The position numbers were made by a program, and so were the translations under genes. The notes beneath the pieces were generated by a model. The model had not been told where the DNA came from. It worked only from the letters and a program-made list of their open reading frames with translations, and searched no databases. Shown piece after piece: positions 7,796-51,759 of a DNA stretch of 51,759 nt (position 1 is the stretch's first letter; each line of letters opens with the position of its first letter). Location of the stretch: assembly GCA_014084085.1 (NCBI GenBank), contig NPFB01000106.1, positions 1 through 51,759 of the forward strand, given 5' to 3'. The DNA comes from Hondaea fermentalgiana (lineage: Eukaryota; Sar; Bigyra; Thraustochytrida; Thraustochytriidae).

Positions 7796-9176
7796 CTCCG
7801 CCTCGCTCCGCGCCCGCCGCTCCTCCTCTCCGCGCTGCCTGCGCGCTCCGCGTCTGCCCGCGCGTCCGTCTGCCCGCGTCCGTCTGCGCCTCTGTCTAGA
7901 CAGTCTGCCTCTGCCTGCCCTGCTCGCGCGAGTCCCGAGGCTCAAGCGCGCACGCCTCGGGGCTCTCTATCTTGCCTTGCCCTGCCTGGTCGCCTTGCTT
8001 GCTTGCTGCCAGCGCAGACAGTTATACGGGTTAGTTGCAGTTGGCTGGCTCAAAGAGTATAGGCTATAGATAACCACCGACCGCCCCGGCAGCCCGATCG
8101 ATCTATCTGTCGATTGGGTATCCATCCACCCATCCACCCATCCATCCATCCATCCATCCGCCATGCCCGTTCATCCCTCCGCGGCCGACGCGCCGCCGGC
8201 GCAGCACGGGAGGCGCGACGCTGCGGCGCGGCGCGGCGTGGCCGCGAGGCGTCGCTGGCGGCCGCGGGCAGGCAGGCCAGGGGGCAGGGCGGCCAAGGCC
8301 AGGCCAGGGAGAGGGGAAGCGCTTCCTCTCTCCGTCTCTCTGGCTCGGAAGAGTAGTATCTTTCCTTCTTTTCTTTCTTTCCACTCGTTTTCTTTCTTGG
8401 TCTCTCTCGTACGTAACCATGGCACGAGGAGGAACTCACTCGACACCGGCGCAGCGGAAGCGAGGCGAGCGGACCACCACCGTTTTCACCCGCGTCACCG
8501 CCGTCTGCGTCACCCGCGTCGCCGTCGTCGTCGTCGTGCTCGTCGTCGTCATGATGACCATGGCCGAAAGCGGCTCGCTGTTGCCTGCAACAAATGCAAC
8601 AGCAACCAGCGAGCGGTTCGCAGCTGCAGCTGGCCCCGCCGTCGTGGATTTCTGCCTCGCACCGACAGCGACAGAGCCACCGCTGCAGCCACCGTGGCCA
8701 GTGGCGGGGCCTCGGAGCGCAGAACGCAAAGGCCCCGCACGACAGCTGAGCGTTCGGAGCGGGTGATGCGAAGCTGGAACAAGGCCAGAGCTTCCTGTCC
8801 TTTCAAACGCCGCGAGCTTCCAATCAATCGATGCCTCTGCAGCTGCAGCCCACGAGTGGCGGTGGTGGACGAGGCAGCGGCAGCGGCAGCGGCGTATACA
8901 AGGCGCGTGATCATAGAGTGAGTGTGCAAGGCGTCGACCACGTCTGGTGAAAGGTGTGTCTGTGTGGCATGCCCTGATCCGAAAGTCCTAACATAATTTT
9001 CGCTCATGCCATGCCAGAGGCGAAAAAAAACAACCGTAGTACTACGTAACATAGTTTTCTTCTTTCATCTCTTTGAGTTCTCGTGCTCCGCCAACATGGA
9101 AAAGAAAACAACACCTTTCATGGTCAACAAAAATACACAAACACACACACACCCTTTCTCTCTCTTATTTTTTTAT
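7796..9176. other. Intergenic: leader and simple repeats, weak small frames
   Basis: The left part is the GC-rich leader of the transporter gene. It includes CTTGC/CCTTG units at 7971-8010, which read as GCAAG repeats in the sense strand. A TCCA repeat lies at 8121-8159 and pyrimidine-rich runs at 8360-8410. A plus-strand frame at 8419-8766 (115 residues) starts in a good context (ACCATGGC). It has a hydrophobic segment (VAVVVVVLVVVMM) made by GTC/GTCGTC repeats. I do not accept it as a gene without transcript evidence. The palindrome GTAGTACTAC occurs near 9035. Confidence 0.45.
8121..8159. repeat. TCCA tetranucleotide microsatellite
   Basis: Imperfect repeat of TCCA/CCCA units, about nine copies, in the leader region upstream of the minus-strand transporter gene. 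Confidence 0.9.
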
Positions 9177-37577: not shown

Positions 37578-37723
37578 GCGGAGACCAGAGCGGAGCAGGG
37601 NNNNNNNNNNNNNNNNNNNNNNNNNNNNNNNNNNNNNNNNNNNNNNNNNNNNNNNNNNNNNNNNNNNNNNNNNNNNNNNNNNNNNNNNNNNNNNNNNNNN
37701 GCGGAGACCAGAGCGGAGCAGGG
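37578..37723. other. Assembly gap of 100 N inside a 23-base direct repeat
   Basis: Positions 37601-37700 are all N, the conventional length for a gap of unknown size. The 23 bases before the gap (37578-37600) are identical to the 23 bases after it (37701-37723). The key words are GCGGAGACC and AGAGCGGAGCAGGG. The two contigs may overlap here, or a tandem array may have collapsed. Confidence 0.95.
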
Positions 37724-38595: not shown

Positions 38596-41500
38596 TTAGC
38601 GCTCGGATGTTTCACCGGCTGCGGCTGATGTCGCGTGCAAGACGCGATGGAGAAAAATGCGCTGAAGCTCCTCGTTCACGGCCTCCTCCGCATAGATCTC
38701 GCTGCGAAAGTAAAGAACCTCCTCCTTGAGAAAGAGATTGGCATGCAGGGCCCTGTCCATCTCGTGCGCCGACTCCTCCAGCCTCTTGGCATCGCTCCAG
38801 TTCCAGGCCGACTCGACTTGCATGGGGAGAACGCGTCGCGAGACACAAAAGTAATTGAGGGAATCCCTGAGACCTTGCACGTGGAAGATCCCGTTCGTCA
38901 AGATGAGAAGAACCACCGCGTCTGGCTGCGGCCCGGTTCGAGTTTCCTGCTCCTTTCTCTCGGCCAGCTTTTCTCCGTTCTCGTCAAGCCTGACAATGAA
39001 GCGATAGCGCGTAGAGTTCACCAGCCTCGTGTTGCGCGCCGTGGACGGTTGCATGCACATCTCATAGCGCTTTGCCGCGCGTTCTCCGTCGGGACTGTCG
39101 CCGCCATAGACCACGAAAATCTCAACGTCCTTTTGCGTCTCGCTGTCGTGCGCGTGTTGCTGCGCACCGTCGCTCCGATTTTGCCAGACATCGCTCGAGC
39201 TCAAGAGCTCCGGAGGCACAAAGCCCGAAATCCGCATCAATTGTTTAGCCACAGCATCTGCTTCGAACTTTCGCCGACGGTAGACGAGGATCTTTTCCTC
39301 GCCATACTTGAAGCAGTAATTCCTCACCAGCTTGAGGGCATGCAGGAGTTCCTCCTTCATTTCAACTTCTTTCCGCAGGTTTTGCATGTTGCTCTTGAAT
39401 TCTCGAGTGGCCACATGGATAAATTCACTCCTTTTCTGAGGTCCAGGTACATGCCTTCGCTCGATGGCTTCGGTAAAGTCCCACTTGAAATCATTCTCCG
39501 TCCTCCACGTTAGCTCGTCATCTTCAGCTTGTTCGCAGCCTTGGCTGCGAGAGGACCAGGGCGTGCATGCTGTGTTCCAGTGTGGATTCCTCAAATCATC
39601 CTCCTTGATAAAGATGACGTCCCTTTTAAGTTCAATCGCCTGTGCCAGCTCAAGGAGACAGAACGGACGAAAGAGTGCTGAGCGCGTGAGGATAAAGACA
39701 AACCTTTTGGAAAGCGCAATGCCTTCGTACATCCCGGGCAATGTCACAACGTCAGCATTCACGTCGACCCAGGTGTACGCACGCTTTGCTCGCAGATGAA
39801 GATCCAGTTGTTGAACGATCCAAGACGCCTCCCGTTGAACGTGACTTAGGAAAAAGTGGTATCGCGGCAGTAAGTCGTTGCTGGGTTGCAATGGCGTTGG
39901 GTCCGCCGTCTTGACTTTGGCTGGCTTCCCACGAATGATAAAGGGGTGGCGAAGAACATCCTCAATAGTGATGCGCTGGCTTGAAACGCCCACGAGGCAT
40001 CGGCGGACAAGGTCTCGGCCATCCTCATGTTGGCCCAGTCTCTTGTCGCGCTCGTCGTCGAGACCAATCCAATTTATCAGCTCCGCCCTTTCGACGCGGG
40101 TCACGAGGTTGTCCGTGTTTCGTTCCATGAGAAAAAGTGGCGTTCCGCTGAGAAGCTCGTACAAGACCACGCCAAAACTCCACACATCAAATTGCGACTT
40201 GTCGCAGCTCCGTGACTCGTCGTGGTCGTGTCGCCTGTCGCGACCAGAGTTGGCATCGTCATCGCTGGCCTCGTACCAAAAAGTGTTGGGGCCCGTGCCC
40301 GTGCGCTCTTGGGACAGGAAAAGAATTCTGGCTGCCTCCGGGGGGATGTATCCCGAGCTGCACTTGGTGTTGGCGTCAAAACGTTCCTCTTTGGACGTTG
40401 CTGAGTCCATATCGATGAGATTCCACCTCGCCCCGTCTTCGTTCAAGCTATCCTCGCCGTCCCTCAATAGAGCAGCCGGGGTCTTACTGTACTTGCACCG
40501 ACGACTCTCGCTCCAAAAGCTCTTGTCAAAGGTGCCCTTGTCAGTGAAAAAGCGCTCGGTCGAGACGGACGACCTCAGAATCACATTGCGTGGCTTGATG
40601 TCGCCATGCACGATGTCTTCTTTGTGCAGTTCAGCGATCGCGTGAGCAAGATACCAAGCGACAGTTCGGATTCGGCATGCGTCGGGCCCGGCAAGATACT
40701 CCGAGTTCATGAAGCCAAAGAGGGTATAGTTTGCTCTGGTCATGATGATGCACTTGTCTTCCACGTGGAGCGCACGGATCTTCATTGTGTACTTGTACTG
40801 ACGCTGCTTTCGATCTAGATCTGTGATGAGCTCGTCGCGAGGCATGTCCCTGTTGTATTCAATCCCGCGCGCACGCAGCTCGCGGTCAAACTCCCTTTCG
40901 TCCTCCATCACCTTGATTGCAACGGATTTGCTGTTGTCGCGAAGATCGTTCGCAAAGAAGACCACACAATTTTGACTCAGGTGGGCAGGAGCGCCCTTGA
41001 CCACTTGATAACGCCCGAGATAGACCCCGTGCGTTAGAGCCCAGTCGCGAAGCTCCGTACCTTCACAGGCGCGCACGATTGATCGCAGAGAGCGGCCTCG
41101 TTTGTCCTTGTAGTCGAAGAGTCCAGTCATGAGCGAGTGGTTGTTTCGCGTGATATCTTTCATGATCTTCATCATGTTCATGAGCGAGCTTCTTTGCGCG
41201 AAGATATGATGGATCATGGACCCGTGCTCTTGCTTCGTATCGGAACCAAGCGTCGCCCCAGGCGAATGCACTTCATCGGCCCAGGCATCATCCTCCGCAG
41301 CGCAATCCTGACCAAATGGCCCGGTAAACGAGGAGTCGTGTCTTTGAAGAGGACGCAAGCAAGGTGCCGGAGACTCTGATGCCGTCCAGATGGACATGTG
41401 CGCCCAGACGCTATAGTTGCCCTTGTACAGGTGCGTGACCATGGCTGTGATGCACGATGCAAGAAGTCTCGGGTTTTGCTTCACCATCTTGAAGGCTTTG

Positions 41501-43293
41501 GAGGTCCATCGGAAAGATCGCGGGGCATTGTTCTCGCTCCAAAGTCCTACCTCGTCGGCGTTAAAAAGCACCTTGGCAATGTGCTGCGCTCCCTCACGAG
41601 GCTTGCATAATGCGAGCACTGGAACCAGCTCCTCGCAGATGGACCCAAAGGTATTCTCGCGAATGTCGATATTGTAGTCTGACATGCAGAGCGCCACATC
41701 GATAAAGTTAGCCGCCAATTTGGTGTACTTTCTACGCTCGTGCAACGTCGGGCTCTGATCGCCAATGATTTTGATGAGGATAAGCTTGGAAACTTTAAAG
41801 TTGTCCGGCTCCTTGAGCGCCGTAATGATCTTTTCCATCCCCATCTTGAGCGCATTGCGTTTCAAGTTGAGCTCGTCCACCTTGCACACGCGAACGAGAT
41901 TGCAGATCGCATCCACGCATCTTCCTGTGAGCTTGTTGCGACCAAGATGCACCAACTTCATGTCTTTGCCACGCTTCAGCAGTGCTTCCAAGAGCTCAAT
42001 GGCCGCATCGTCGCCAATTTGATTGTTGAAGAGGTTGATAGAAAGCAGATCATTTGTCACGGTGATTGAACGTGCAATGGACAGACCTCCTCTTTCCCCG
42101 ATAACGTTGACGGCAAGGTCGAGAACCTCGAGGTTCTTGTGGCGCTCGAACAAAGTACGCAAACAGTCGTCGCTCTTTTCCGTCAAGTTATTGAAAAACA
42201 GCGAGAGCAGTTTCAAATTCGACTGGGACTTGGTGTCAGCGAGTGCACTGCAGATTTCGCGGCAACCTGCATCGGCAATTGCGTTCATGCCAAGATCGAG
42301 GGCGCACAGAGACGTGTTCTTGCGGAGAGAATCGCCGAGAGCGATTCCGCCCTCTGCGCCAATGACGTTATTTCGGAGGCTCAGCACCTGTACGAAACAG
42401 TCCGCTTGCTTGAGAAAGCTTGCCACAACTTTGGCGCCAACGGACCCGAGTCCATTGTTGTAAAGTTGCAGCTTTACGAGGGTCTTGTTGCCCCGGAGAG
42501 CACAAAGGAGTTCATCGAGACTCGTGCGACCAATATCCCCGGGGGCGTTGTTGCGGTCGGCAAAGGAGTGCGACTCTTCCTTCTTCAAGTCATTGCCCAA
42601 ACCGCTGCCACCGAGGTTGAGAAAGACGAGATGGTGATTGAGCTTAAGAGCGTTTCCAAGCTTGATCATGCGCAGAACGCCGGGGCGTAAGGGTTGCTGG
42701 CCAGAGTAAGGCTGTGGCGAAACAAGTCGCGATTCTTTTCCTGGTGCGTCATTGGCCTGCAGAGATTGCGACGCAGCGCCTGCTCGAGTTCCATCCTCAA
42801 AGGTCTCTGTCTGAGGATGCAGGGCAGACACAGATTCGATGTTGGCTGCAAGCCCATTGCGGCTCAGATCCAGGCCAACCATCCAAGGGATGTTGTATTT
42901 GATAATTTGCACCACATCGTCGAAGATCTCGCGATTTAGATCAACAGAGGAAACCTCGAGGAGACCGAGCGTTCTAAAGCCCACTTCAACGCGCTCGTGC
43001 TCTTCTTGGTTCGCGGCGCCCGCCAGGATAGACGTGCATTCCACGCGTTTTGGGGCTTCCTCGCCGGCCCCGGACCAAATGTGCCGTTCAGTAGTCGCCT
43101 GCTCAACCTTGGCCTGCTCTTCGACATTTGCGCAGAGAGGCTCGTAATACATTTTCCTATTGACACCGAGCATCCTCGACGTGTTGCCGATGTCTTCCCA
43201 TCCCGCACGAACCGTCAGCCCATCTTCGGACTCGGGCAGGTCGCTATTGGCCTGCTCAGTCCTCGCAAGGTGCTCCTCGCTGACGCTGGCCAT
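38596..43293 (-). CDS. LRR-kinase-TIR immune-receptor-like protein
   Basis: 1,565 residues in one exon; start GCCAGCATC in the plus strand (ATG at 43293). Residues about 95-500 are leucine-rich repeats of the ribonuclease-inhibitor/NLR type (LVKLQLYNNGLGSVGAKVV, LCALDLGMNAIADAGC, LLSINLFNNQIGDDAA). A helical linker (about 500-745) ends in an ankyrin-terminal-like piece. A protein kinase domain (about 755-1120) has Lys794 in VAIKVM and Asp898 in VHGDIKPRN. The metal-binding loop is LIDMDSA with Asp961. GYIPPEA and DVWSFGVVLYELLSG follow. A TIR domain begins at about 1142 (RYHFFLSHVQREASWIV, YTWVDVNAD). It keeps the glutamate typical of NAD-cleaving TIRs in FCLLELAQAI (Glu1215). The last 250 residues resemble a second, divergent TIR-like fold. 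No signal peptide or membrane helix is present, so it is a cytosolic sensor candidate. Confidence 0.9.
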   Translation of the reverse strand: MASVSEEHLARTEQANSDLPESEDGLTVRAGWEDIGNTSRMLGVNRKMYYEPLCANVEEQAKVEQATTERHIWSGAGEEAPKRVECTSILAGAANQEEHERVEVGFRTLGLLEVSSVDLNREIFDDVVQIIKYNIPWMVGLDLSRNGLAANIESVSALHPQTETFEDGTRAGAASQSLQANDAPGKESRLVSPQPYSGQQPLRPGVLRMIKLGNALKLNHHLVFLNLGGSGLGNDLKKEESHSFADRNNAPGDIGRTSLDELLCALRGNKTLVKLQLYNNGLGSVGAKVVASFLKQADCFVQVLSLRNNVIGAEGGIALGDSLRKNTSLCALDLGMNAIADAGCREICSALADTKSQSNLKLLSLFFNNLTEKSDDCLRTLFERHKNLEVLDLAVNVIGERGGLSIARSITVTNDLLSINLFNNQIGDDAAIELLEALLKRGKDMKLVHLGRNKLTGRCVDAICNLVRVCKVDELNLKRNALKMGMEKIITALKEPDNFKVSKLILIKIIGDQSPTLHERRKYTKLAANFIDVALCMSDYNIDIRENTFGSICEELVPVLALCKPREGAQHIAKVLFNADEVGLWSENNAPRSFRWTSKAFKMVKQNPRLLASCITAMVTHLYKGNYSVWAHMSIWTASESPAPCLRPLQRHDSSFTGPFGQDCAAEDDAWADEVHSPGATLGSDTKQEHGSMIHHIFAQRSSLMNMMKIMKDITRNNHSLMTGLFDYKDKRGRSLRSIVRACEGTELRDWALTHGVYLGRYQVVKGAPAHLSQNCVVFFANDLRDNSKSVAIKVMEDEREFDRELRARGIEYNRDMPRDELITDLDRKQRQYKYTMKIRALHVEDKCIIMTRANYTLFGFMNSEYLAGPDACRIRTVAWYLAHAIAELHKEDIVHGDIKPRNVILRSSVSTERFFTDKGTFDKSFWSESRRCKYSKTPAALLRDGEDSLNEDGARWNLIDMDSATSKEERFDANTKCSSGYIPPEAARILFLSQERTGTGPNTFWYEASDDDANSGRDRRHDHDESRSCDKSQFDVWSFGVVLYELLSGTPLFLMERNTDNLVTRVERAELINWIGLDDERDKRLGQHEDGRDLVRRCLVGVSSQRITIEDVLRHPFIIRGKPAKVKTADPTPLQPSNDLLPRYHFFLSHVQREASWIVQQLDLHLRAKRAYTWVDVNADVVTLPGMYEGIALSKRFVFILTRSALFRPFCLLELAQAIELKRDVIFIKEDDLRNPHWNTACTPWSSRSQGCEQAEDDELTWRTENDFKWDFTEAIERRHVPGPQKRSEFIHVATREFKSNMQNLRKEVEMKEELLHALKLVRNYCFKYGEEKILVYRRRKFEADAVAKQLMRISGFVPPELLSSSDVWQNRSDGAQQHAHDSETQKDVEIFVVYGGDSPDGERAAKRYEMCMQPSTARNTRLVNSTRYRFIVRLDENGEKLAERKEQETRTGPQPDAVVLLILTNGIFHVQGLRDSLNYFCVSRRVLPMQVESAWNWSDAKRLEESAHEMDRALHANLFLKEEVLYFRSEIYAEEAVNEELQRIFLHRVLHATSAAAGETSER

Positions 43294-44299
43294 CTTGCTG
43301 CTTGATCCTCAAGCACCTTGAAAGCTTGCTCGAGCACCACCAAGCTGATACGTTTGCTTGTTTATGAACAAAGGGGAAGATTTGTTGCTTGAGGCTTGCC
43401 TTAATTTTAAAGATCGATCGATCCGAAAAAGATCGCTTTCTCCCGGAAAATATCTATCGCTTCTTTCACCAAGAATCGATTTCTCCAGAAGGATCTAGAT
43501 CTTTTCCTGCACTGCGATGTATAGCGATGCTTTGTTTTCCTCGCGCCACGCCACCACCTCGAATTAGATGGTCTCGCTGCACGTCTAGGTTCCGGGTCTG
43601 CCGATTCCTTCCCTCCGCTCCAACTCTGCGCTGCCTTGCCACGCTTCCCGGTCGCTGGAGCTCCCTGGGGTCCTCGAGGACGCCGCCAAGCTCTCTCGCT
43701 TCACCAACCCCGCTTCTCGCGCCCTCTGGCTCCTCGTCCTCTCGCCCGCACGTAGGGGTCCTCGCCCGTCGCGCGAACCGGAAACATCGGCCCCGGGCCC
43801 GTCCTACACCGCGTCCGGCGAGTTGCGAGTTGGTCTCGCCGTCCGTCCGTCGGTCGTCGTGTCCCCGTCTCCGTCCTCGTCGCTGTCCCCGTCGCTGTCG
43901 CTGCCGCTGCCGCCATGGTCGCTGCCGCCGTCTGTCGCTGTCGCTCTTCGCGTCGTCCAAGCGGCTCTCTCCAGCTAATGCGGCAAGACCAGCGCGGCGC
44001 GTGCCGCCACGGTACCGGTTCGCGGTACCGGCCTGGAGAACCTGCGCGCGCGAACCTGCTGGAGAACCTGCGGCCAGTGGAGAGGAGAACCTGGGCGGCG
44101 GAGGAGAACCTACGCGACGGAGAACCTACGCGAAGCGGACGCGTGCGAAGGACGGGGGTGAAACAAAGGAACGCAACGCAAAGCAAAAGAACTTGAGAAC
44201 TCGGAACGCAAAGCAAAGGAACGCAAACGCAAAGCAGAGAACTTGAAACGCAAAGCAAGCAAAGCAAAGCAAATACCGAACGCGGCGCGGGACCACGAG
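43294..44299. promoter_or_regulatory. Divergent promoter interval, TIR gene / Nudix gene
   Basis: About 1 kb between two start codons pointing apart. Near the TIR start the DNA is AT-richer, with GATCGATC and AGATCT-like words (43410-43500). The middle is GC-rich. The Nudix side ends in a repetitive leader (listed separately). Long frames crossing it are compositional. Confidence 0.5.
44160..44280 (+). repeat. Irregular CAAAG/GAACGCAAAG repeat in the Nudix leader
   Basis: Units such as GAACGCAAAGCAAAG and AGAACTTGA recur several times and end about 20 bases before the start codon at 44300. The tract is nearly T-free in the sense strand. Confidence 0.85.
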
Positions 44300-45055
44300 A
44301 TGCCACGCAACATTCGGATGTCGTTTGAGGAGAAATTTCCGAGCTGCGACGATATGGACAGGGAGACGGAGAGCGGCGAGGCGCCGAGCTTGAAGGATCA
44401 TGCGGAAAAGGTGCACGATGTCCCGCTTGAGGCGCCGGGCTTTCGCTGGGTGCGGCTGGTGAAGCAGACGTTTCGCAATGAAAAGCAAGTAGAGAAGGAG
44501 TGGGAGTTCGCAGAGCGTACGACGCGCAAAGGAGAGATTGACGCAGTCTTCATTGTGGCCACCGTCGTCGGACGCATGGAGGGACAGGGGCCGGAAACGC
44601 TCGTCATCTCGCAGTATCGCCCGCCTACCGACTCCTACGTGCTCGAGTTCCCCGCGGGACTCGTCGATGAGGGAGAGGACGCCGAGACCGCGGCGCTTCG
44701 CGAACTCCGCGAGGAGACCGGGTATCTTGGCGAGGTCAAATCCGTCTCCGACGTGCTGTTTGTCGACCCGGGACTCTCGAATGCCAATCTTAAGTTCGTT
44801 AATGTCACAGTAGACTGTACCAATGATCTCAATCGCGAACCAGTGCCAAAGCAGGATGAGGACGAGTTCATACAAACGCATCTGGTTCCTCAAAAGGACC
44901 TTCTCAAGTCACTTCGCAATCCCAGGCATATTGAGACGGAGAAATCGATGCTTCCCGACACGACCGCCCTCAAAGACCGGTCCAATGTGACTGTGAGTGG
45001 GCTGCTCTACGCATACGCTCTCGGTCTTGCAGCAGCTCAAAGTCAGCATGTATAG
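44300..45055 (+). CDS. Nudix hydrolase, ADP-ribose pyrophosphatase type
   Basis: 251 residues from the Met at 44300 (GAGATGCCAC). An in-frame Met at 44243 and a second at 44318 are alternatives. The Nudix box is complete at residues 120-142: G-LVDEG-E-DAETAAL-REL-REETGY, with all catalytic Glu residues. Upstream are GEIDAVFIVATVV and VISQYRPPTDSYVLEFPAG, the strand and QYR-x10-EFPAG elements of the NUDT5/YSA1 group. That group splits ADP-ribose into AMP and ribose 5-phosphate. Downstream DPGLSNANLKFVNVTVD also fits: NUDT5 and Ysa1 have a DPG-x(3)-E/N element there. The C-terminus VSGLLYAYALGLAA matches the family's final helix. It likely clears ADP-ribose or related nucleoside diphosphate sugars in the cytosol. 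It is head to head with a TIR gene whose product may generate ADP-ribose. Confidence 0.9.
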   Translation: MPRNIRMSFEEKFPSCDDMDRETESGEAPSLKDHAEKVHDVPLEAPGFRWVRLVKQTFRNEKQVEKEWEFAERTTRKGEIDAVFIVATVVGRMEGQGPETLVISQYRPPTDSYVLEFPAGLVDEGEDAETAALRELREETGYLGEVKSVSDVLFVDPGLSNANLKFVNVTVDCTNDLNREPVPKQDEDEFIQTHLVPQKDLLKSLRNPRHIETEKSMLPDTTALKDRSNVTVSGLLYAYALGLAAAQSQHV

Positions 45056-49385: not shown

Positions 49386-50933
49386 TCACTCCTTGCCGGA
49401 TTTGAGAAATTGATTCCGGTAGTGGAGAAGAGGCGTAGTGCCGTGAAAGCATGACGTCCAGCCACGGTCGCTCTGTTTGTTCTTGTAAATTTTGCGCTTG
49501 CAGTAAAGCGCAAAGCTGGGCGGAGAAATGAAAACATTGGACTCGAACTCGATGAGTCCGCCTTCATTGATGACGCCCTCAAAACGATGCTTGTTTAAAT
49601 AGGGGACGCTGATGACGTCCCCCGGTTTCAGGTAGCCATGCTCGACGAGGTCAACAATCGTGGTTTGATGCGGGTTCCGTTTCAAGACGAGATCGTTTTT
49701 GAACTCGTATTTGCGTCTTTTCGGTGAGCTTGGTCGGGCTGCGCCACTGGCATTGCTGTTGCCCGAGGTGCTACAAACGCTGTTGCCTCGTCGCTTCCCC
49801 TGGCGCGTGGTGGTTTCAGAAGTTCCGTTTGAAGCGCCTTGGGCGCGGCGCTCCCCGTTTGCAGCTCCGGCCCCGCCCCCCCTCGTGGCGCAAGCTCGGC
49901 TTTGCTGGGATCGTGTCCCCACACGTGACGTTGAGGTTGACGTGGATGAAGAAGCAAGGGGCTCAGAGGGCGCCTTCGTCGCCGTTGTGCTTGCGACCGT
50001 CGCGGCGGTCTGTTCGTTCCCAGGCAAAAGGTGCGTAAGCGATCGCCGCGTCCCCTTGGAGCGCGACTGCTGATGGACCTTTTCGAGGTGCTTGATCGTC
50101 GGCGCGATGCAGGCGTGACAGAACCATGGTTCGGGCAAAGCCACATTCTCTCCACCTTCAAAAGAAACGCACCGGCGATGAAACCACTTGCAGCATGAGC
50201 GAAAGTCACACCCTACAGCGTTTGCAAAGTCCTTTTCTTCGATTTCCTTGGCGCACACAGAGCAAATGGTCGGCGTGGCCTCGCCGCCTTCATCCGCATA
50301 GGATGCACTGTCTTCGGCTTCGGATCCAGCATTCGCGTCACGAGACGCTGCGCGAGCAGCCCCAAGACCCGCGCGAACGGCCTTGCGCTTTCGTCGAGGC
50401 TGCCCGCGCGAATCTTCGCCCGAAGTGGTGCCATCGTTTTCTATTTCATTTTCATCGGCGCCTTCAAAGGCGTTCAGGGGCGGTCGCGCGCCCGACGCGC
50501 CCATGGCAGCAGGGCGCGTCTCGCGCTCCTTGTGAGCTGCAGTGGCCATATCGATGGCGCTACGCGGCGTGAGCGCCGCGCGTCGAGGCGTAAGAAGGGC
50601 TCGCGCTGACTTGAACTGCGCCAGACTGGATAGAAGCTCCAGCGTCGCGCGTTCGCTCGCGTCAATGTCAAGTTCCTCCACCGATGGAGTGTCGGGGTCG
50701 TTTCGACCGCCGCTGTTTGCTATGTCTCTTGCGTTTTGGCCACTTTCCGTCTCAAGTTTCATCACACCTTCCCCCGAAGAGACTTCTGCATCGGAATGGC
50801 GCAGCTTGCTCGGCACGCTCAGGGCGAAGCGCGCGTCCCCGGCATCGTCAGAAGTAGCAGGCTCGTCGCTTCGTACAGTGTTTGATTGTGGTGGTACTAA
50901 CGATGCTGACGCCGACGCTGAGGTTGCTGCTGT

Positions 50934-50969
<36 letters not shown>

Positions 50970-51701
50970 CGGAGCAGTTTGTGCGGGTTGAAAGCCCTCG
51001 GCTACAAGCTTTCTCACGAGCGGGGAGTTGTCGACGCAGACCTGCAGGTGACTCCCGCTATTGAGGAGATCGTCGGACACCGTGCGGTATTCTGCGGCAA
51101 GTTTACTGGCGGCGATTGCACTGATGGAAGAGGCGGCCGCCATGACCTGGTGCTTGTCTCGGGCCTTGGCAAGGAGCTTGCTGGCGTGGCCCTTGTTTCG
51201 GGGTGAGAAGAGCCCGCAGAGACTCTGTTCCATGAGGCGCCGGAGGTCGTCCGGGTTCTGAAGTTTTTGCACGGCCTCGACGCCGGTCCTGAATTGGTCC
51301 CAGACGGGGAAGAAGCTCTGCAGCGCCTCGGGCGCTGCGTCGCCCTGGGCCTCGAGCTCTTTGCGCGAGGCGTCCACGAGGGTGACGAGGCGGGCCCACT
51401 CGGCCCTCGAGGTCGGGTCCTCGCGCATGGCAAAGTACTCTGGGCCCTTTGAAGAGAACTCGCGTCGCAGCTGCTCAAAGGCCGGCGCCGTGACCCCTTG
51501 TCTCTTCCACTGCGCAATGTTCCCCAGAATCTCGATGTACAGCTCGAAGAGGTTCAGGTCCGCGTCGCCCTCCCCTTGCGGACCTGCGAAAGCTCCTCCT
51601 CCTCCTCCTCGCTGCAGCAGCTGCTGCTGCTGCTGCTGCACGCGCTCCCACGGCTGCAGCAGCTGCTCCTGCTGCTCGTGCTGGGCCGTGCTCGGCGCCA
51701 T
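49386..51701 (-). CDS. PHD finger-RAMA domain chromatin protein
   Basis: 771 residues from the first ATG at 51701 (MAPSTAQHEQQEQ). The frame stays open to the window edge at 51759, and CCAG/GTG before the ATG could be a splice acceptor, so the true 5' end may be outside. Poly-Gln (about 22-27), poly-Gly and poly-Ser runs flank a helical region (about 45-230, NLFELYIEILGNIAQWKRQ). A PHD finger at about 477-535 has CSVC, then C-x5-CC, WFHRRC and WFCHAC, in C4HC3 order. Ser/Thr-rich sequence separates it from a C-terminal RAMA domain (about 675-765: IVDLVEHGYLKPGDVISV, GLIEFESNVFISPPSFALYC, GWTSCF). PHD fingers read histone tails. RAMA domains occur in adenine-methylation enzymes and in MPND, reported to bind 6mA DNA. 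The protein is therefore a candidate chromatin reader. Confidence 0.82.
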
Positions 51702-51759
51702 CCCCGGCACCTGGAGCGGGCTGGGCCGCGGCGGTCTGCTCAGCGCGGGGCCGGCCGCC

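Follow-up and report, generated by a model that had tools for sequence, protein, structure and literature searches.

A divergent LRR–kinase–TIR protein and the expanded kinase–TIR family of the thraustochytrid Hondaea fermentalgiana

Known kinase–TIR proteins and the layout of the locus

Kinase and TIR domains share a single polypeptide in choanoflagellates, for which Richter et al. 2018 (PMC6040629), in the portion of the text available, described Kinase TLRs (LRR, transmembrane helix, kinase, TIR) and Kinase TIRs, calling both unique to choanoflagellates and uncharacterized. The kinase–TIR combination that a preliminary description reported in our locus is indeed present; in view of these published proteins, it belongs to a kind already known.

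We analyzed a window of 51,759 nucleotides, the whole stretch of Hondaea fermentalgiana DNA (Stramenopiles, Labyrinthulomycetes, Thraustochytriidae) considered here. One gene in it carries the following features.

38596..43293, minus strand: whole reading frame, 1565 aa (LRR, helical region, kinase, TIR, C-terminal alpha/beta domain); ORF list and Pfam
41809..42678, minus strand: ribonuclease-inhibitor-type LRRs, residues ~206–495 (best modelled 280–459); LRR_6, PDB sequence matches, pLDDT
41017..41808, minus strand: helical region, fold not assigned, residues ~496–759; AlphaFold2 model
39934..41016, minus strand: protein kinase, residues ~760–1120; Pfam Pkinase, alignments, residue check
39214..39870, minus strand: TIR domain, residues ~1142–1360, its strands D and E separated by a long helical insert; Pfam, genome search, structural model
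39649..39651, minus strand: codon of Glu1215, in the catalytic-Glu column; residue check, alignment A3
38614..39141, minus strand: C-terminal alpha/beta domain, residues ~1385–1560, which may be a further, degenerate TIR that lacks the Glu; model, hhalign, paralogue L044

The single intronless frame is real and lies where it had been placed, and a Pfam scan of the 1565-aa protein recovered all three domains in the proposed order (LRR_6, E = 2e-9; Pkinase, E = 7.3e-19; TIR_2, E = 9.3e-6). Its start is well bounded, since the stop-to-stop frame in the six-frame search is 1570 aa and the frame from ATG to stop 1565 aa. We also found the absence of a membrane helix borne out: hydropathy peaks at ~1.45–1.46 (Kyte–Doolittle), and because all 19-residue windows are ≤1.46, no such helix is indicated, either between LRR and TIR, where Toll-like receptors have one, or between LRR and kinase, where LRR receptor-like kinases do. 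The NB-ARC or NACHT domain of NLRs gave no match at E ≤ 1 in the Pfam scan, and the suggestion that the kinase replaces the NB-ARC switch was a functional guess, not supported as stated. The preliminary description had the LRR, kinase, and TIR in order and missed the C-terminal alpha/beta domain.

In a PDB sequence search, the LRRs matched ribonuclease inhibitor (E = 4.2e-24) and also the LRRs of NLRPs. Repeats of this type occur in radial-spoke and dynein-regulatory proteins as well (PDB sequence matches), and the "complete immune-receptor-like architecture" claimed for the protein amounts to a likeness of parts. The LRR model has a 10-residue mean pLDDT of 73–95 over model residues 171–350. 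The following region (residues ~496–759) is mostly helical at low pLDDT and has no Pfam match above cut-off in the whole-protein scan. On balance, the earlier observation was confirmed and its interpretation partly supported. Our preferred reading, held at about even confidence, is that this is a thraustochytrid cytosolic receptor-like signalling protein in which LRR sensing and kinase gating would control an NAD-cleaving TIR, probably in defence.

Compared with the choanoflagellate proteins in the available portion of PMC6040629, the window protein likewise has kinase and TIR in one chain and shares the LRR–kinase–TIR order of the Kinase TLRs. In contrast to these, it has no membrane helix, and a kinase plus a TIR without such a helix is the combination by which that text defines Kinase TIRs. 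The same text mentions no post-TIR domain; the window protein has one. None of the matches listed in our protein searches, many of which lack an organism name, was named as a choanoflagellate. What is new here is an expanded kinase–TIR family in a stramenopile, with a cytosolic LRR form and a conserved extra C-terminal domain; its likeness to the choanoflagellate proteins is one of architecture.

Plant TIR-NB-LRR receptors such as RUN1 and RPP1 share with the window protein the LRRs, a TIR fold of the enzymatic type, and a cytosolic location, but the window protein lacks NB-ARC, has the opposite domain order, carries a kinase in the middle, and has ribonuclease-inhibitor-type LRRs. SARM1 is also cytosolic and resembles it in the TIR fold, the Glu column, and the position of the TIR in the C-terminal part; it has ARM and SAM domains where the window protein has LRR and kinase. 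Animal Toll-like receptors likewise place the LRR N-terminally and the TIR toward the C terminus, but are unlike the window protein in having a membrane helix, and they recruit a kinase that the window protein carries in cis. Plant TIR group 16 differs by its description in the available part of a survey (PMC7075850), with a P-loop NTPase or ATPase as partner and no LRRs. An atlas of eukaryotic TIRs (PMC13142454), also available in part, covers EukProt, which includes several of the kinase–TIR proteins described below, and reports uncharacterised eukaryote-only TIR clades; the main text consulted mentions neither Labyrinthul, thraustochytrid, stramenopile, nor kinase. Our literature search, from which subscription journals were mostly missing, found no paper on labyrinthulomycete kinase–TIR proteins and none pairing "Thraustochytrid" with "TIR domain."

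The kinase, TIR, and C-terminal domains

The kinase retains these residues of active eukaryotic protein kinases: K794 (VAIK Lys), E805 (helix-C Glu), D898 (HxD Asp), N903 (Asn), and D961 (DFG Asp). Its DFG motif reads DMD, with the glycine absent, and DxD occupies this site in 14/14 aligned rows. The glycine-rich loop of active eukaryotic kinases was not seen in the window kinase, where GAPAHLSQN stands at its place.

The TIR_2 profile scored 26.6 bits on the whole protein, just below the curated cut-off of 28, and 30.4 bits, above it, in the six-frame genome search; with a profile match and the predicted TIR fold, the domain belongs to the TIR superfamily. Structure prediction, proposed earlier as a check, bore out the fold, the best structural matches being enzymatic TIRs from plants and SARM1. 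The domain starts at ~1142 as first described, but, with a long insert separating strands D and E, it extends to ~1360 and not to 1300. The residue numbers given for the FLSH first strand (1148–1151) and for Glu1215 in FCLLELAQAI (1211–1220) were right. Glu1215 opens helix C and occupies the column in which NAD-cleaving TIRs have their catalytic Glu, as first described. However, profile alignment showed that TLR6 also carries Glu in this column, and because animal TLR TIRs are described as without enzymatic activity (PMC11249213, seen in part), the residue is not diagnostic of an NADase.

This bears on the strongest alternative, a kinase-led signalling protein whose TIR, like those of animal TLRs, would serve for docking, cleaving no NAD+ and leaving phosphorylation as the output. 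We consider it somewhat unlikely: Glu is kept in the catalytic column of 14/15 family TIRs (alignment A3) and of all 20 aligned TIR ORFs from the H. fermentalgiana genome, and the enzymatic TIRs among the best structural matches point the same way. Side by side with this stands a natural contrast between enzyme and scaffold, the kinase–TIR paralogue L043 (G000 C213; gene model P0015), where Gly takes the place of the catalytic Glu and the rest is kept.

The last 175 residues are modelled as five strands plus helices in a TIR-like order. In hhalign, this C-terminal domain aligned with TIR over 26 columns (P = 1.7e-4, probability 50%), its end falling on the YRRRxFEEDAM end of the TIR. The weakness of direct profile matches speaks against a TIR: the C-terminal domain of L044, scanned alone, reached 16.7 bits with Pfam TIR (E = 0.0066; cut-off 21.3) and had a slightly better match to DUF4154. 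Other profile comparisons with TIR families gave weak matches, below cut-off when the domain was scanned alone, and alignment A4 has no conserved Glu at the place of TIR helix C. We regard a second, degenerate TIR as possible.

A kinase–TIR family and its genomic setting

Searching the genome with residues 740–1565 gave at least 51 matches (55 of 65 candidates scored). Kinase and TIR share one open frame in the window gene and in at least eight further loci (L038–L045), and therefore the pairing is more than chance. L046 has a kinase without a TIR in the frame read, and in L047 (G000 C14:924500-927200) a kinase–TIR-like core is split over several short frames, from introns or as a decayed copy. 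Protein searches scored the best 7987–7992 candidates by shared words and genome searches the best candidates, so that all family counts are lower bounds. Several loci have counterparts among database proteins: L041 is identical to P0006 over 1291 residues and L045 to P0014 over 882 residues, L039 equals P0016, and L040 is 94% identical to P0017. The protein database alone supplied two more gene models, P0012 and P0013, which are ≤67% identical to any L locus (L047 left out of the comparison). P0006, an LRR–kinase–TIR protein, is named "Protein NLRC3 [Hondaea fermentalgiana]" at NCBI, presumably from its LRRs; its Pfam table has no NACHT.

The window gene, L038, L041/P0006, P0012, and P0015 each have an LRR_6 match that exceeds its cut-off. 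Outside the records that carry the name Hondaea, LRR–kinase–TIR proteins are P0007, P0008, and P0011 (LRR_6 and TIR_2 of P0011 being below their cut-offs), and P0009 and P0002 are kinase–TIR proteins. P0002 is a partial sequence recorded under the dinoflagellate Durusdinium trenchii, either its own gene or a contaminant. P0003 is a kinase–TIR protein whose N-terminal part looks membrane-spanning by eye. Alignments A1 and A2, built from the 17 proteins P0001–P0017, omit P0001 (the window protein), P0004 and P0005 (kinases without TIR in the Pfam list), and P0013 (a truncated model). The tree groups L041 with P0007 and P0008 at 100/100. The window gene, at most 33–34% identical to any other row, sits there on a long branch of unsure placement, and we regard it as a divergent member of an expanded family.

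The six-frame search of the genome gave 73 TIR_2 matches, 68 of them above cut-off, and 31 were read. We scanned 20 TIR ORFs (18 non-kinase ORFs of 21 read, plus L038 and L042, omitting L028 for a gap and L030 and L032 as short) and found COR-A in 12, Roc in 11, and ankyrin in 4. NB-ARC gave no match in the genome context. By eye from the translations, the COR–TIR proteins, mostly with Roc, are L017, L019–L023, L025–L027, L029, L034, and L035, the last apparently LRR–Roc–COR–TIR, and the ankyrin–TIR proteins are L018 (twice), L024, and L033. TIR proteins are thus many, with Roc-COR, ankyrin, LRR-Roc-COR, or kinase as partners; fusion to a kinase is one type among several, and the COR and ankyrin repertoire is as interesting.

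An NADase-type TIR protein could also act without an immune role, as a stress, metabolic, or developmental switch like SARM1 in neurons. The SARM1-like fold match agrees with this, as does the 64% identity of L041 and P0007, which is unlike that of fast-evolving immune receptors. We nevertheless judge it quite unlikely, since recognition fits better with many paralogues in one genome, variable N termini, and a large TIR repertoire, and the branch of the window gene itself is long. A read-through of adjacent genes by assembly or gene-model error is very improbable: although the window gene is known here from genomic DNA alone, its frame is uninterrupted and the same kinase–TIR core recurs in the further loci and in other records.

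A NUDIX hydrolase gene (window 44243–45055, plus strand; E = 1.1e-14) adjoins the TIR gene divergently and, if of the ADP-ribose type, would fit a TIR product; none of the 16 NUDIX matches in the genome otherwise lies ≤10 kb from a TIR match. The window also holds a RAMA domain protein (49386–51710, minus strand; 44.8 bits), whose PHD-finger match falls just short of its cut-off (22.4 of 24), and an assembly gap of exactly 100 N (37601–37700) with repeated sequence on its flanks, seen in the translations.

Proposed working and meaning

As an LRR-sensed, kinase-gated, NAD-cleaving TIR protein, the window protein would bind a ligand or a guarded protein through its N-terminal LRR arc. Binding would free or gather the kinase, whose catalytic residues are in place, to phosphorylate itself or its neighbours. 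Clustering could then align the TIRs, which have the fold and the Glu, for NAD+ cleavage through Glu1215, the output being a nucleotide signal or an NAD+ depletion that would arrest or kill the cell. Assembly or control may fall to the C-terminal domain, perhaps a second TIR without the conserved Glu. By analogy, defence is the likeliest purpose.

A bolder proposal, which we find rather unlikely, is that thraustochytrids have a class of cytosolic immune receptors uniting sensor, switch, and executioner in one chain, where the LRR triggers a kinase that gates an NAD-cleaving TIR in cis and a second, dead TIR-like domain controls assembly. If true, this would be an NLR equivalent without a nucleotide-binding switch. 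Receptor logic of this kind can be put to the test: both the Glu and the kinase Asp are clear, and the Glu-to-Gly paralogue L043 provides an internal contrast.

Eukaryotic innate immunity is known mostly from animals, plants, and fungi. The family means that kinase–TIR pairing is not confined to choanoflagellates, and its sequences suggest that a single-celled marine protist may have an unstudied cell-internal alarm system. A stramenopile multi-gene kinase–TIR family, partly with LRR sensors, would extend receptor logic beyond animals, plants, and fungi, with phosphorylation instead of a nucleotide switch.
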